From positions 124,001 through 188,000 of the forward strand of contig JAJPIO010000004.1 in assembly GCA_021324735.1 (NCBI GenBank): DNA of 64,000 nt, in the 5' to 3' direction. Positions 42,625 to 55,264 of the stretch are shown in pieces (position 1 is the first letter of the stretch; each line of letters starts with the position of its first letter). The notes beneath the pieces are model-generated. The model saw only the letters and a list, made by a program, of their open reading frames with translations, made no database searches and was not told the DNA's origin. The DNA comes from Bacteroidota bacterium (GTDB lineage: Bacteria > Bacteroidota > Ignavibacteria > Palsa-1295). Position numbers and translations under genes: made by a program.

Positions 42625-43155
42625 CTATTCTTCATACAAAAATTGCAACCGTTTCCTAAGAGCGAGCACTGCATATCGCTTGCGCGCGAGCAATGTGTTG
42701 AGGTTCTCGCCGGTACGGTCCTGGATATCCTTGAATGACATGCCTTCCAGTTCGTGCATAATGAAGACGTCGCGCTGCTTATCGGGGAGGTCAGCTAAGG
42801 CATCCATAAATGCTTCCCAGATCTCGGCTTGTTCGAGGGTTGCTTCACCGTCGAATCTCGTACCAACAACCGAACGAGTGTGGTCATCGGTCAGACGTTC
42901 GGGCTTACGGCGACGGTACCAATCGATCACTCGATTTCGAGCAGCATGGTACAGCCAGGCACCCACATCCTCGATCGCCTCGGAAGCATCCACCGCCCGG
43001 ACAAGCTGAAACAGCGTGTCCTGCACGATATCCTCCGCCAGATCGATATCCCGTACCTTGGAACGGACGAATTTGAGAATAGTCTCACGCCCCTCCTCGA
43101 GGAGCCTCGCCCCCCGGGCATTGGTCAGATCGTTCACGGTCAGTGCTGCGCTCAT
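42625..43155 (-). CDS. ECF-type RNA polymerase sigma factor
   Basis: The start at 43155 (MSAALTVNDL) gives 176 residues; 43179 is possible. Region 2 has DIDLAEDIVQDTLFQLVRAV and AWLYHAARNRVIDWYRRRKP, the core-binding and -10 recognition parts. Region 4 has LPDKQRDVFIMHELEGMSFK and the helix-turn-helix TGENLNTLLARKRYAVLALR. A standard ECF protein of the SigE-like type. It is transcribed divergently from the M16 peptidase pair and followed by a small membrane protein that may belong to its circuit. Confidence 0.93.
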   Translation of the reverse strand: MSAALTVNDLTNARGARLLEEGRETILKFVRSKVRDIDLAEDIVQDTLFQLVRAVDASEAIEDVGAWLYHAARNRVIDWYRRRKPERLTDDHTRSVVGTRFDGEATLEQAEIWEAFMDALADLPDKQRDVFIMHELEGMSFKDIQDRTGENLNTLLARKRYAVLALRKRLQFLYEE

Positions 43156-52285: not shown

Positions 52286-52309
52286 GAGGGTATTCATACG
52301 AATACCCTC
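52286..52309. other. Perfect 10-bp hairpin upstream of gcdH
   Basis: GAGGGTATTC (52286-52295) pairs with GAATACCCTC (52300-52309) across ATAC. On the minus strand it is followed by TTTGCATTT. It may be a terminator for the lipoprotein operon or part of the gcdH leader. Confidence 0.6.
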
Positions 52310-52428: not shown

Positions 52429-53085
52429 CTACTTTTGTTGGATCGACATCAACCGGTTTTCGACCATCCCATCGCCCGGCCGTTCGATATGTGAGAAGAT
52501 CAGTCCCTTACCACGAGCGAACCACTGCGTGCCAGTCGTACCACTACCACCGGTGTATTGCACCATGATCACATCACTATATGACTGTCCTTCCACCTGA
52601 GCGGACACACCATACTGTAGCACATTTGCAGTGACCGTCTCGCCTTTAGATTGGAACGTCCAGTTGGCACCTTTGCTAAGCGGTGATTGAAGATCGACCC
52701 AATGATCATTATACATACCGGAGAATTCGATACCGAGATCGATCGCCTGCTTGTCGTTCAGCGAATAATACCACATGGTCGGAGTACCAAAATTATTGTA
52801 GCTCCACATGCAACCGTACACTGGCGTTCCGTTCACGTTATCCTCCTGGCCTTTCATATCCATCGTAAGCTGGCCATTACCTGGATGGTAGGCAGAACCC
52901 ACAGAAGAAACCGCATACTGATATTCCATTCTCGGCGCTGCAAGCTGGATATAATATTGCCTTACGTCCGGCTCGGGCGGAGGGCTATTCTGTGGTGCAG
53001 TATCGACCGAACAGCTCGAAAGCGCCGCCATGGAGAGTAAGCTCACCAAGATCGCATATCGTTTAACTGTTATCTTTCCGCTCAT
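52429..53085 (-). CDS. Lipoprotein of unknown function in the sigma/anti-sigma operon
   Basis: The start at 53085 (MSGKITVKRYA) gives 218 residues; an upstream ATG at 53130 would precede the signal peptide. The lipobox is LSSC. The mature part begins with Ser/Pro/Asn-rich sequence and then beta-type strands (VNGTPVYGCMWSYNNFGTPT, GIEFSGMYNDHWVDLQSPLS) ending with SHIERPGDGMVENRLMSIQ. No family is recognised. It is 58 bp after the anti-sigma gene on the same strand, so it may be a target or sensor of that system. Confidence 0.7.
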   Translation of the reverse strand: MSGKITVKRYAILVSLLSMAALSSCSVDTAPQNSPPPEPDVRQYYIQLAAPRMEYQYAVSSVGSAYHPGNGQLTMDMKGQEDNVNGTPVYGCMWSYNNFGTPTMWYYSLNDKQAIDLGIEFSGMYNDHWVDLQSPLSKGANWTFQSKGETVTANVLQYGVSAQVEGQSYSDVIMVQYTGGSGTTGTQWFARGKGLIFSHIERPGDGMVENRLMSIQQK

Positions 53086-53143
53086 AATTGTCTTCCTCTC
53101 TCCTTTTCCAGTGACGGATACAGTGCACATACCGGCGCTCGTA

Positions 53144-54340
53144 CTAAAACTTGTACGTCAATCCATATTCGATTCGGCCATCCAGAGTTTTGTAGATCGG
53201 TCCGTTATCGTAGATGATCGCCGCATCAGACGTTTGAATATCACGCTGATGAAGATTCGTAAGCACCATCGAGAAACCTCCCAGTAAATGATCGCCGAAT
53301 GGTACTTCGAAACCAACTTCGCCGGTAATTAACATACCGAGCGAATAGATACCATAGCCAGCGCCTGCCGTTACGAAGAATAATCCTTCCACTGGCTCGC
53401 GATGGCGATAAAGAATTTCACCCGAAAGACCACTTTGACTACCGAGGCTAACTTCCGTAAACCCGGCACCGCTCGTTTGCTGCAATCCCTGGAATGAACC
53501 CTCGGTGAAACGAAGGCCAACCTGATTCTTCGAATCCAGATTATAGGCAGCCCTCAACGATACGGTCGCAAATGGATTTAACTGCGGTACATTGGACGGT
53601 CGGCTAAACCCAGAAGTGATCGGTGTGGCGATGCTAAGCTCGAATTTAGAATTACCATCATTGAGAGCAATATCCTGCTGCGAACGAAGCGACGCGAGCG
53701 TTGAACCGGTGCGCGGCAATTCTACTCGGCCCACTTCTTTCGCTCTTGGTACCAATTGAATGGTGCTCGCAGTAGAGTTCTGCTCCGCATTTTGAGCCGC
53801 CACAGGAGTGACTGGTGCAGCAATTCGCGGAACAGAGTTTCTAACGACCCATGAACGATGCGGAGCAACGCCACTTGTTACAATATTTTGTATCGAAGGT
53901 ACTGACATAGTGGTGGTGGCTACACTGTTTGCTGACGCTGGATTTACTGACGCGGCAACAGGAGCCACGTGCAGTTGTTTTATATCGCCTGCATTATTAG
54001 TGTGGTATTCCATACCGCCGATGAATGCCACGAGAAGAATAGCGATAGCGGCAGCGGTCATCGAGAGTCGACGAGTACTCCAGAACCCGACGGGCACTGC
54101 ATCACGCTCTGCCTCTTGAAGAGACTCGATATGGGCAAAAAGATCTTCTTCAAGCTCTGGAGGAACCGAAACATTACGTGCAGCACGATACGATATATTG
54201 CGAAGCGTCACATGCTTCTCAAAGATATCTCGGATTTCCGGACTGACAGAGACTCGATGCAAAAGTTCTGCACTTTCGCTGTCCGTTAATCGACCATCCA
54301 TATAGGCGATGATCGTATCTTCTATTTGAAATTCCTTCAT
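53144..54340 (-). CDS. Anti-sigma factor with C-terminal outer-membrane barrel (dual-membrane type)
   Basis: The product has 398 residues. Residues 1-80 are a cytoplasmic helical anti-sigma-like domain (IIAYMDGRLTDSESAELLHR) without zinc ligands. A single membrane helix is at 92-111 (LSMTAAAIAILLVAFIGGME). A 115-residue Ala/Pro/Val-rich linker leads to a region (about 230-398) of alternating strands such as ATVSLRAAYN, QVGLRFTE, LFFVTAGAGYGIYSLGMLIT and GGFSMVLTN. It ends YGLTYKF with the aromatic C-terminus of outer-membrane barrels. Proteins with this plan (Dma1 of Bacteroides) are described as dual membrane-spanning anti-sigma factors. The ATG overlaps the sigma-factor stop (ATGA). Confidence 0.8.
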   Translation of the reverse strand: MKEFQIEDTIIAYMDGRLTDSESAELLHRVSVSPEIRDIFEKHVTLRNISYRAARNVSVPPELEEDLFAHIESLQEAERDAVPVGFWSTRRLSMTAAAIAILLVAFIGGMEYHTNNAGDIKQLHVAPVAASVNPASANSVATTTMSVPSIQNIVTSGVAPHRSWVVRNSVPRIAAPVTPVAAQNAEQNSTASTIQLVPRAKEVGRVELPRTGSTLASLRSQQDIALNDGNSKFELSIATPITSGFSRPSNVPQLNPFATVSLRAAYNLDSKNQVGLRFTEGSFQGLQQTSGAGFTEVSLGSQSGLSGEILYRHREPVEGLFFVTAGAGYGIYSLGMLITGEVGFEVPFGDHLLGGFSMVLTNLHQRDIQTSDAAIIYDNGPIYKTLDGRIEYGLTYKF

Positions 54341-55113
54341 CGTGCAAACACCTCCTCATGGGACGATTCATCGTCTCTCATGCTCTTTCCTATGTCATCC
54401 ATCGAAATCGGTCTCTCAATGCTTTCAAATTCGTCATACTCTTCGCGGCTCTCTTCGATCGCGTTCAGAGGATCGGTAAGGCGGCTTTTACGACCCGAAC
54501 GACTCGCCTCATATTTGTAATATGGTGCGAGCAGCATTCTCAGTTGCTTTTTCGCTCGGGTGATACGCACCTTGACATTCATCTCAGTCGTATTTGTTAT
54601 CCGGGCGATCTCATCATAATCGTATCCTTCGAACTCGCGAAGCAAAAAGGCTTCACGATAGATCGGCGCCAATTTTTCCAGCGAAACTCGAAGCATGTCA
54701 TCCGCGATCATGTGCTGGACCGGTTGTGCCGGTTGTTCCAAAGTCTTTCCGATCGAGTCAAAATCTTCCGCCCCGCTTATGGATACGAATTCGGGTGTGA
54801 ACTTCGAACTGCGCAATAAATTAAGGCAAACGGATCGCGTGATCATGAGCACCCAGCTTTTAAGGGCCTTCGGGTCCCGAAGTTGATCGCGCCGAGTATA
54901 AACCCTGCTAAAGACCTCCTGAAACGCATCTTCTGCCAACGCCTGATCGCTCATATAATAGATGCAATAGCTCAAAACCCGCTGGCGAAATCGTGTATAG
55001 ACGAACTTAAAGCCAGCCATATCACCTCGGGTGAAGGCCTGGATCAGCGTCAGTTCACGCTCGCTTAACTCTGCTTCTTTTACTCTGGACATCCGATGAC
55101 TAACTGGCGACAT
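54337..55113 (-). CDS. ECF-type RNA polymerase sigma factor with charged C-terminal tail
   Basis: The product has 258 residues (or 251 from 55092). Region 2 has DQALAEDAFQEVFSRVYTRR and SWVLMITRSVCLNLLRSSKF. Region 4 has LAPIYREAFLLREFEGYDYD and a helix-turn-helix (EIARITNTTEMNVKVRITRA). The last 60 residues are an acidic extension (IEESREEYDEFESIERPISM) not needed for a basic ECF factor. It is the first gene of a three-gene unit with the barrel-ended anti-sigma gene (4-bp overlap) and a lipoprotein gene. The pair would transmit outer-membrane stress to transcription. Confidence 0.92.
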   Translation of the reverse strand: MSPVSHRMSRVKEAELSERELTLIQAFTRGDMAGFKFVYTRFRQRVLSYCIYYMSDQALAEDAFQEVFSRVYTRRDQLRDPKALKSWVLMITRSVCLNLLRSSKFTPEFVSISGAEDFDSIGKTLEQPAQPVQHMIADDMLRVSLEKLAPIYREAFLLREFEGYDYDEIARITNTTEMNVKVRITRAKKQLRMLLAPYYKYEASRSGRKSRLTDPLNAIEESREEYDEFESIERPISMDDIGKSMRDDESSHEEVFAR

Positions 55114-55211
55114 TGCTTAGGACACAATCTGAAGGAGTGTAGTTACAACGGACTTATGCATTAACCTTGTCACAGGGACAAAATTGCTTAAAGAATCGTA
55201 GTTTAAAGACA

Positions 55212-55241
55212 CGAAAAAAGCCGCATCACTTGCGGCTTTTC
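55212..55241 (-). terminator. Rho-independent terminator of the M48 protease gene
   Basis: AAAAGCCGC (55215-55223) pairs with GCGGCTTTT (55232-55240) and is followed on the minus strand by a run of T. Confidence 0.85.
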
Positions 55242-55264
55242 TTCAAACTGGTGCGTTCTAAGCT

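Follow-up and report, generated by a model that had tools for sequence, protein, structure and literature searches.

A Three-gene Sigma Factor Operon in a Kapaibacterium-like Member of the Bacteroidota with an Anti-sigma Factor Predicted to Span Both Membranes

Results

Organization of the Operon

The 64,000-nucleotide stretch of contig JAJPIO010000004.1 analyzed here (the window) carries, on its minus strand, a unit of three open reading frames (ORFs) that encode an extracytoplasmic function (ECF) sigma factor (258 residues, with a C-terminal tail of ∼60 residues; 54337..55113), an anti-sigma factor that is predicted to span both membranes (398 residues; 53144..54340), and a lipoprotein (233 residues, with a predicted β-clam fold and a lipidated Cys40, codon 53011-53013; 52429..53130). 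All three ORFs were confirmed at the positions given in an initial annotation made from the sequence, and 11 of the 13 family genomes carry the three genes in the same order. The start of the anti-sigma gene overlaps the sigma stop by ATGA, and the gap between the anti-sigma and lipoprotein genes is 13 nucleotides, or 58 if the lipoprotein starts at Met16. Terminator-like hairpins, likewise on the minus strand, lie 3′ of the lipoprotein gene (52286..52309) and at the end of the preceding gene (55214..55242), where the latter would bound the unit upstream; because the regional consensus scan finds no excess of such hairpins over shuffles, the two go no further than being consistent with a self-contained unit. 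The host, whose genome comprises 3.55 Mb in 19 contigs, is Kapaibacterium-like and lies inside the phylum Bacteroidota and outside the class of Bacteroides; NCBI places Kapaibacterium in the class Eximiradiia of the Bacteroidota.

The sigma factor matches Pfam Sigma70_r2 (4e-13) and Sigma70_r4_2 (2e-17) and is a two-domain ECF factor. An ECF-type promoter found by pattern search, TTGTAAC-N16-GTGTCC (55120..55148, minus strand), ends only 6 nucleotides 5′ of the first sigma ATG, and translation therefore probably begins at the following Met, at 55092. The initial annotation had remarked on an extra acidic tail: residues 196-258 do contain 17 Asp/Glu, together with 10 Lys/Arg, among 63 residues, but the tail is poorly conserved. 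The sequence EEV near its end is encoded by GAGGAGG in the window and two relatives and by GGGGAGG in a third, which is likely to be the ribosome-binding site of the anti-sigma gene, and that part of the tail therefore need not be a feature of the protein.

Regions and Predicted Structure of the Anti-sigma Factor

Four regions, all on the minus strand, can be distinguished in the anti-sigma factor. Residues 1-80 (54101..54340) appear from an AlphaFold2 model and weak profile matches to be a cytoplasmic sigma-binding region, with helices at residues 6-14, 20-32, 34-56, and 61-79. They are followed by a single inner-membrane helix with two arginines just ahead of it (residues 92-110, 54011..54067), which is the only hydrophobic helix in the protein (best 19-residue Kyte-Doolittle mean, 2.23) and corresponds to a helix at residues 85-114 in the model. 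Residues 115-221 (53678..53998) are predicted from the model and from composition to be a disordered periplasmic linker; this is the long Ala/Pro linker of the initial annotation, and it contains 15% Ala, 14% Val, 12% Ser, and 8% Pro. Residues 226-398 (53147..53665) are predicted to form an eight-stranded barrel of the outer-membrane type ending in EYGLTYKF. The single hydrophobic helix and the YKF terminus described earlier are both borne out.

Neither the anti-sigma factor nor the lipoprotein has a Pfam match at E ≤ 1. The anti-sigma factor contains no cysteine and hence no zinc motif, a motif that is described as optional in class I anti-sigma domains (ASDI) (PMC7406223). The match of the N-terminal part to anti-sigma profiles is weak (6e-5 for the window protein); among 12 members, PRK13920 was matched in 6 and NF052375 in 3. 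The ASDI layout comprises a three-helix bundle and a fourth helix within the N-terminal ∼100 residues, and the model shows four helices, with the profile matches being weak.

The model was built from an alignment of seven sequences (A3). In ten-residue blocks, its predicted local distance difference test score (pLDDT) averages 80-86 over residues 11-50, drops below 50 at residues 55-64, and over residues 231-398 is 76-87 in most blocks, with dips to 43-70. Where the initial annotation had proposed a C-terminal barrel, as opposed to no barrel or a periplasmic sandwich, the model contains eight strands of at least 7 residues each (233-240, 260-267, 272-291, 294-317, 321-332, 335-348, 352-366, and 382-397), and Foldseek ranks outer-membrane barrels, OmpA and NspA among them, at the top (E 3e-6 to 1e-4). 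In VIA-align, the barrel matches OprF (4rlc; Z 17.0, root mean square deviation (rmsd) 2.2, 119 residues aligned), Legionella porin III (Z 17.0, rmsd 4.2, 155 aligned), NspA (1p4t; Z 16.4, rmsd 2.4, 137 aligned), OmpW (8qxp; Z 16.1, rmsd 3.6, 156 aligned), and OmpA (Z 16.0, rmsd 3.0, 150 aligned). By sequence, the anti-sigma profile has no match in the PDB (best E 0.55).

A soluble periplasmic barrel resembling avidins or lipocalins, with which only the inner membrane would be spanned, could be argued from the presence of avidins (Z ∼11) and designed soluble barrels in the structural list (10.7-13.0 for the two kinds) and from the two strands of only 8 residues. However, these proteins stand well below the outer-membrane barrels, which reach Z 17, and the other six strands are 12-24 residues long. 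A C-terminal Y-x-F ending is typical of barrel assembly signals, and it is present in 10 of 10 orthologs, with Tyr396 and Phe398 invariant and Gly393 nearly so; a wider form, G-x-x-hydrophobic-x-hydrophobic, ends 44 of 60 wider relatives as compared with 3 of 153 control ORFs. It should be noted that the 60 relatives, 22 of which are from the host's own family, were picked by hand from the matches listed for the class, with three added from the phylum search. Most were chosen for having room on the contig and an open frame of 380 residues or more, and they are not a random sample. Given the eight-stranded model, the outer-membrane matches, and the ending, a soluble C-terminal domain was judged unlikely, and we regard it as very improbable. 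The model supports the assignment of residues 233-397 as an eight-stranded barrel of the outer-membrane type, which the disordered linker connects to the single inner-membrane helix and the helical sigma-binding region.

Counted between the alignment columns of residues 114 and 233, the linker is 112-167 residues long in 10 orthologs; a stretched chain covers ∼3.5 Å per residue, and a linker of this length, which is never lost, could reach across a periplasm. A linker predicted to be this long and unstructured would also be accessible to proteases, and if cleavage on the barrel side of the inner-membrane helix were the normal state of the anti-sigma factor, each membrane would hold a separate protein and no chain would span the two. 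This is considered unlikely, since in the 10 orthologs the linker is never short, the total length among the 60 relatives is never below 358 residues, and the barrel and sigma-binding region are never two genes in the orthologs, the sole split (in G007) being at contig ends.

Conservation and Paralogs

The anti-sigma factor was matched in 13 of 13 family genomes. The orthologous operon is present in 11 of these (G000-G003, G005-G007, and G009-G012), with the order sigma, anti-sigma, lipoprotein in all 11, including G007, where the operon is divided between two contigs; G004 (67% complete) and G008 (92% complete) yielded paralogs only. The outer neighbors vary (an acyl-CoA dehydrogenase in some genomes, other genes elsewhere), and by this comparison the shared three-gene order is more than chance. 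In the host genome there are 26 matches to Sigma70_r2, and inspection of the surroundings of the 25 other than that of the window (in one, L054, the sigma frame was not found) gave a total of six long anti-sigma factors of this kind, the others being on contigs C1, C7, C11, C14, and C18; a lipoprotein gene is next in five of the six.

The family profile was matched in 75 of 294 genomes of the class and in 56 of 395 genomes of the phylum. Because the open frames in the 26 of the latter that lie outside the class are mostly shorter than 300 residues, the fusion of a sigma-binding part to a barrel seems, from these searches, to be mainly a trait of the class. Among the 60 wider relatives, a sigma gene is directly upstream of the anti-sigma gene in 54, and the barrels, taken together as a profile, match those of the orthologs at 97.5% probability. 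The initial annotation had raised the co-occurrence of the lipoprotein with the pair, and this extends from 11 of 11 orthologous operons to the wider set, in which a lipobox gene is directly downstream in 34 of 60 versus 5 of 153 control ORFs (relaxed rule, applied identically to both sets, with sigma genes excluded from the control) or 24 of 60 versus 1 of 208 (strict rule, sigma genes in the control). The count of 34 is rough, as at least one case (L174) looks false and several of the 26 misses (among them L178, L181, and L186) show a lipobox.

Promoter and Predicted Regulon

The pattern TTGTAACN{15,17}GTGTCY has one match in the 3.55 Mb of the host genome, the sigma promoter, and 34 in the 13 genomes, where its reversal has 6. 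A looser form of the pattern was matched in 2 of 100 shuffled versions of the window. A pattern ending in GTGTCYTT was dropped, as it missed the known site, where the window reads GTGTCCTA. Of the 11 orthologous operons, 10 have TTGTAAC-N16-GTGTCY in front (with N15 spacing in G002), and the operon is therefore probably self-activated; ahead of the eleventh, in G003, TGTAAC-N15-GTGTCT can be seen by eye.

A site in the host genome with no mismatch to the core (C7:95655) is 62 bp 5′ of a frame for a protein of ∼920 residues that combines a type IX sorting tail with domains of the choice-of-anchor V and D kinds. Of 21 matches to this exported protein, 11 copies were tested, short and weaker ones being left out, against a 14-base consensus with a spacing of 16: seven have a site with one mismatch and two a site with two. 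Shuffles, which keep single-base content only, were as good in ≤0.5% of cases for these nine copies; the figure was 3% for the copy with three mismatches and 77% for that with five. This cross-species comparison supports the exported surface protein as a probable target of the sigma factor. With one mismatch allowed, the pattern gave 40 sites in the host genome versus 31 for the reversed control, and the analysis therefore relied on sites without a mismatch and on the comparison across species. Four of the six zero-mismatch sites were set aside: those of L225 and L226 read GTGTCG and probably belong to another sigma factor, that of L229 also reads GTGTCG and falls inside a frame, and that of L227 has no clear gene behind it.

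Other N16 sites in relatives precede a small exported protein with a sorting tail (G005) and genes of a lipoprotein family in G002, G003, G011, and G012. This family (L258, L259, and L261 in G012, G002, and G011, respectively) has TTGTAAC-N16-GTGTCT ahead and no Pfam match, and in several cases the gene for another exported protein follows. N15 sites stand ahead of another sigma/anti-sigma group (L197, L212, and L220). Other sigma operons of the host keep TTGTAAC with different −10 elements (for example, GTGTTTT before L053 and CGTTTT before L058). This would fit a scheme in which the −10 element decides which sigma factor serves a target, although some cross-talk may occur. Two large exported proteins of the host with near-identical stretches, L263 (C10) and L264 (C9), share the upstream sequence TGTAACwTTTGC...GGTGTCGCTC, which resembles the site before the sigma gene of L059; they perhaps belong to the regulon of another sigma factor.

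The Lipoprotein

The third gene encodes a lipoprotein, as had been annotated, with the lipobox LSSC at Cys40; its start is probably Met16 (53085), downstream of the stretch GGAGAGAGG. The mature protein has 194 residues, and its AlphaFold2 model has a pLDDT of 87.7 and a predicted TM-score (pTM) of 0.86. The model matches BF2203 (3fzx; Z 12.7, rmsd 4.6, 166 residues aligned), BDI_3050 (4fvs; Z 11.4, rmsd 4.9, 165 aligned), Escherichia coli YmcC (2in5; Z 8.6, rmsd 3.7, 137 aligned), and LolA (1ua8; Z 8.2, rmsd 3.8, 125 aligned). Values of Z under 8 are not decisive, and the matches to MucB (6in9; Z 7.5, rmsd 4.9, 132 aligned) and RseB (2v43; Z 7.4, rmsd 4.8, 132 aligned) are at a level that the tool calls ambiguous. 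The best Foldseek E is 4e-4, and the lipoprotein profile found nothing better than E 0.24 among PDB chains by sequence. The protein is thus predicted, from the model, to be a β-clam like YmcC, LolA, and RseB, and this fold suggests a possible role in lipid sensing.

In the host genome, the lipoprotein profile matches this copy only. In the class it has 19 matches in 17 of 294 genomes, of which 11 are the orthologs and three of the other eight (G005:C43, G015:C66, and G052:C2) adjoin a listed anti-sigma match. In profile-profile comparisons, the lipoproteins of other operons are related in three groups, one of them a single protein (probability 94-98%), share only the C-terminal part in three more (54-78%, E 1e-4 to 2e-5), and show no relation in eight groups or single proteins. 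Because many downstream lipoproteins show no profile relation, what is conserved in the third gene is, as far as sequence comparison goes, the type of protein rather than a single family. Two of the three groups related through the C-terminal part carry a long insert of propeller-like appearance. Lipoproteins of ∼500-650 residues in paralogous operons (L061, 5621-7216; L062, 5617-7104; L134-L136, L138, L153, L170, and L171) resemble this lipoprotein enlarged by a long insert, which to the eye may be a β-propeller, the profile link being C-terminal only. In several distant relatives (L174, L176, L177, and L192; families f14 and f15), an exported-looking protein of 671-712 residues, and no lipoprotein, follows the barrel anti-sigma factor.

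The initial annotation had left open whether the lipoprotein is a sensor or an output, and we regard the roles of sensor and executor as about equally likely. As an output, it would be made when the sigma factor is free and would act on the outer membrane, as NigD proteins do in Bacteroides, with the barrel alone as the sensor. The lipoprotein gene is under the apparently self-activated promoter, and its counterpart in distant relatives is a different lipoprotein that is not detectably related. PMC13088901 and PMC13114119 place NigD lipoproteins in the Dma1 regulon and three of them in the EcfO regulon of the EcfO-Reo system, and NigD1 is needed for the extra vesicles formed in Bacteroides (PMC13088901). 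However, the lipoprotein is strictly adjacent to the pair in 11 of 11 orthologous operons, and related lipoproteins, some with the long insert, track the anti-sigma paralogs, more as would be expected of a sensor that diversifies along with them. The general fold is also that of RseB and MucB, and MucB is reported to regulate by sensing lipids and to release its anti-sigma factor (PMC7400510). A purely output role is therefore a credible alternative that we place somewhat short of even. Membership of the NigD group itself was rejected, as the lipoprotein has no Pfam family at the threshold used and NigD_N (PF12667) has no match in the host genome; matches were found in 5 of 395 genomes of the phylum.

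Discussion

The proposal in the initial annotation that one chain crosses both membranes, as in Dma1, is supported by prediction, and the layout is that described for Dma and Reo proteins in PMC13088901, PMC9308784, and PMC13114119. Dma proteins are reported to extend from the outer membrane to the cytosol and to occur solely in the Bacteroidota (PMC13088901); M0N98_03760 has a predicted barrel and responds to envelope stress caused by a toxin (PMC9308784); and Reo is called unique and is said to span five compartments (PMC13114119). The systems described in these articles are from Bacteroides and Phocaeicola only, and the view that such systems are little studied outside Bacteroides now needs the qualification that Dma2 and the Phocaeicola Reo have been added to the literature. 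A survey of publications on Kapabacteria sigma factors, by title and start of abstract, gave no such system.

Like Dma1 and Dma2 with Das in Bacteroides thetaiotaomicron (PMC13088901), the present system combines an ECF sigma factor with an anti-sigma factor that has cytoplasmic, inner-membrane, linker, and outer-membrane parts in one chain, and in both cases its own operon is, or is predicted to be, strongly affected. It differs in that its host is outside the Bacteroidia, the N-terminal part may resemble class I anti-sigma factors, a predicted β-clam lipoprotein takes the place of NigD, and the predicted regulon includes a protein exported by the type IX secretion system. With EcfO-Reo and NigD of Phocaeicola and Bacteroides (PMC9308784 and PMC13114119), it shares the architecture, the regulon lipoproteins, and a proposed response to outer-membrane stress, but its lipoprotein is encoded within the operon and has no NigD domains. 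The resemblance to these systems is one of architecture; no sequence homology to Reo-like proteins was detected. The latter are represented by two loci, L292 and L293, which contain nigD, sigma, and barrel-ended anti-sigma genes and are named by gene content only; the sigma factor of one is 27% identical to that of the window, a figure that decides no ECF group. The barrels of Reo-like proteins match Pfam OMP_b-brl models, unlike that of the window. Comparison of the anti-sigma profile (A2) with the two Reo-like proteins by hhalign gave a probability of 0.7% (E 0.084), in a test of low power with fast-changing barrels, and the 60 barrels gave 0.5%, with two sequences on the Reo side. Separate origin and old divergence from Reo-like proteins are both compatible with these comparisons.

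RseA-RseB with sigma-E and MucA-MucB with AlgU likewise combine a sigma factor, an anti-sigma factor, and a second regulator; theirs has a LolA-like fold capable of binding lipids, which the lipoprotein here may share. RseA and MucA end in the periplasm, whereas the anti-sigma factor here has its own barrel; RseB and MucB have two domains (chains of 268-284 residues), whereas the partner here is a one-domain lipoprotein of 194 mature residues. As in FecR-type cell-surface signaling, an outer-membrane event would control an ECF sigma factor, but barrel and anti-sigma factor are in one chain; signaling of the FecR type was rejected, as there is no FecR domain by Pfam and no adjoining TonB-dependent receptor. 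BF2203 and BDI_3050 are Bacteroidota lipoproteins that have the predicted YmcC-like fold in common with the lipoprotein, which is only 8-9% identical to them.

Together, these comparisons make it probable, in our estimation, that the operon is a self-activated envelope-stress switch in which one chain links the outer membrane to the sigma factor. At rest, the ECF sigma factor would be kept on the cytoplasmic side of the inner membrane by the anti-sigma factor, whose chain would also cross the periplasm by the disordered linker and end in a small barrel folded in the outer membrane. Trouble in the outer membrane, such as a failure of barrel assembly or a signal from the lipids that the co-encoded outer-membrane lipoprotein detects, would disturb the barrel end and free the sigma factor, probably through proteolysis of the tether; the sigma factor would then activate its own operon, raising the levels of anti-sigma factor and lipoprotein, together with a small exported regulon. 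In this scheme, the folds of the barrel and lipoprotein and the helix in the inner membrane are predicted, and comparison between genomes supports the constant grouping of the three genes, their common promoter, and the surface protein as an exported target. Insertion of the chain into the outer membrane and its spanning of both membranes at once, the signal and lipid sensing, proteolytic release, and any connection with vesiculation are inferred.

Several observations weigh against this interpretation. The anti-sigma model as a whole is poor (mean pLDDT 57, pTM 0.38, from the seven-sequence alignment), although the mean is low because half of the chain is disordered, and the length of the linker makes spanning possible and is no proof of it. 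The matches of the lipoprotein to RseB and MucB (Z 7.2-7.5) are in the range rated ambiguous, and we know of no role for the proteins that give its two best matches (3fzx and 4fvs). The downstream lipoprotein is not detectably related in many distant relatives, and one of the six systems in the host, on C7, has none. Two of the 11 copies of the exported protein are without a close site (3 mismatches, and 5 in the second G010 copy).

A more elaborate version is tentative and, in our view, rather doubtful: a two-input surveillance switch for the outer membrane, of separate origin from Bacteroides Dma, in which a class I-type anti-sigma factor fused to an outer-membrane barrel would be combined with a β-clam lipoprotein of the outer membrane. 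By sampling lipids, or lipid anchors that have gone astray, this lipoprotein would control the barrel or the linker, much as RseB does with RseA. The module would have multiplied (six copies in this host), with sensors changed by swaps of the lipoprotein or by inserted domains.

Several proteins normally relay a signal from the outer membrane to the genes, and if the self-activated switch is as proposed, trouble at the outer surface could be reported to them directly. In the present case, this layout is found in proteins of unrelated-looking sequence that are widespread in a distant class, within a fixed operon that includes a lipoprotein whose predicted fold is of a lipid-binding type, and together with a promoter and a predicted regulon. 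In the articles cited, one-chain proteins of this kind are called unique or confined to the Bacteroidota. The system makes it possible to test whether a single chain occupies the two membranes, which signal it responds to, and what role the partner lipoprotein plays.

Other Sigma Factor Loci

The window contains a second ECF sigma gene (42904-43089, minus strand) with no evident anti-sigma gene adjoining it. Elsewhere in the host genome, at L064 (4258-5325; C4), L067 (4122-5132; C15), and L070 (4081-5070; C13), sigma genes are followed by genes for proteins of 329-355 residues, which have no main-family anti-sigma motif and no profile relation to the main family or to Reo-like proteins. In these proteins, a membrane helix near residue 42-53 follows a short N-terminal part, and the C terminus may form a barrel; they are possibly a second kind of two-membrane anti-sigma factor.

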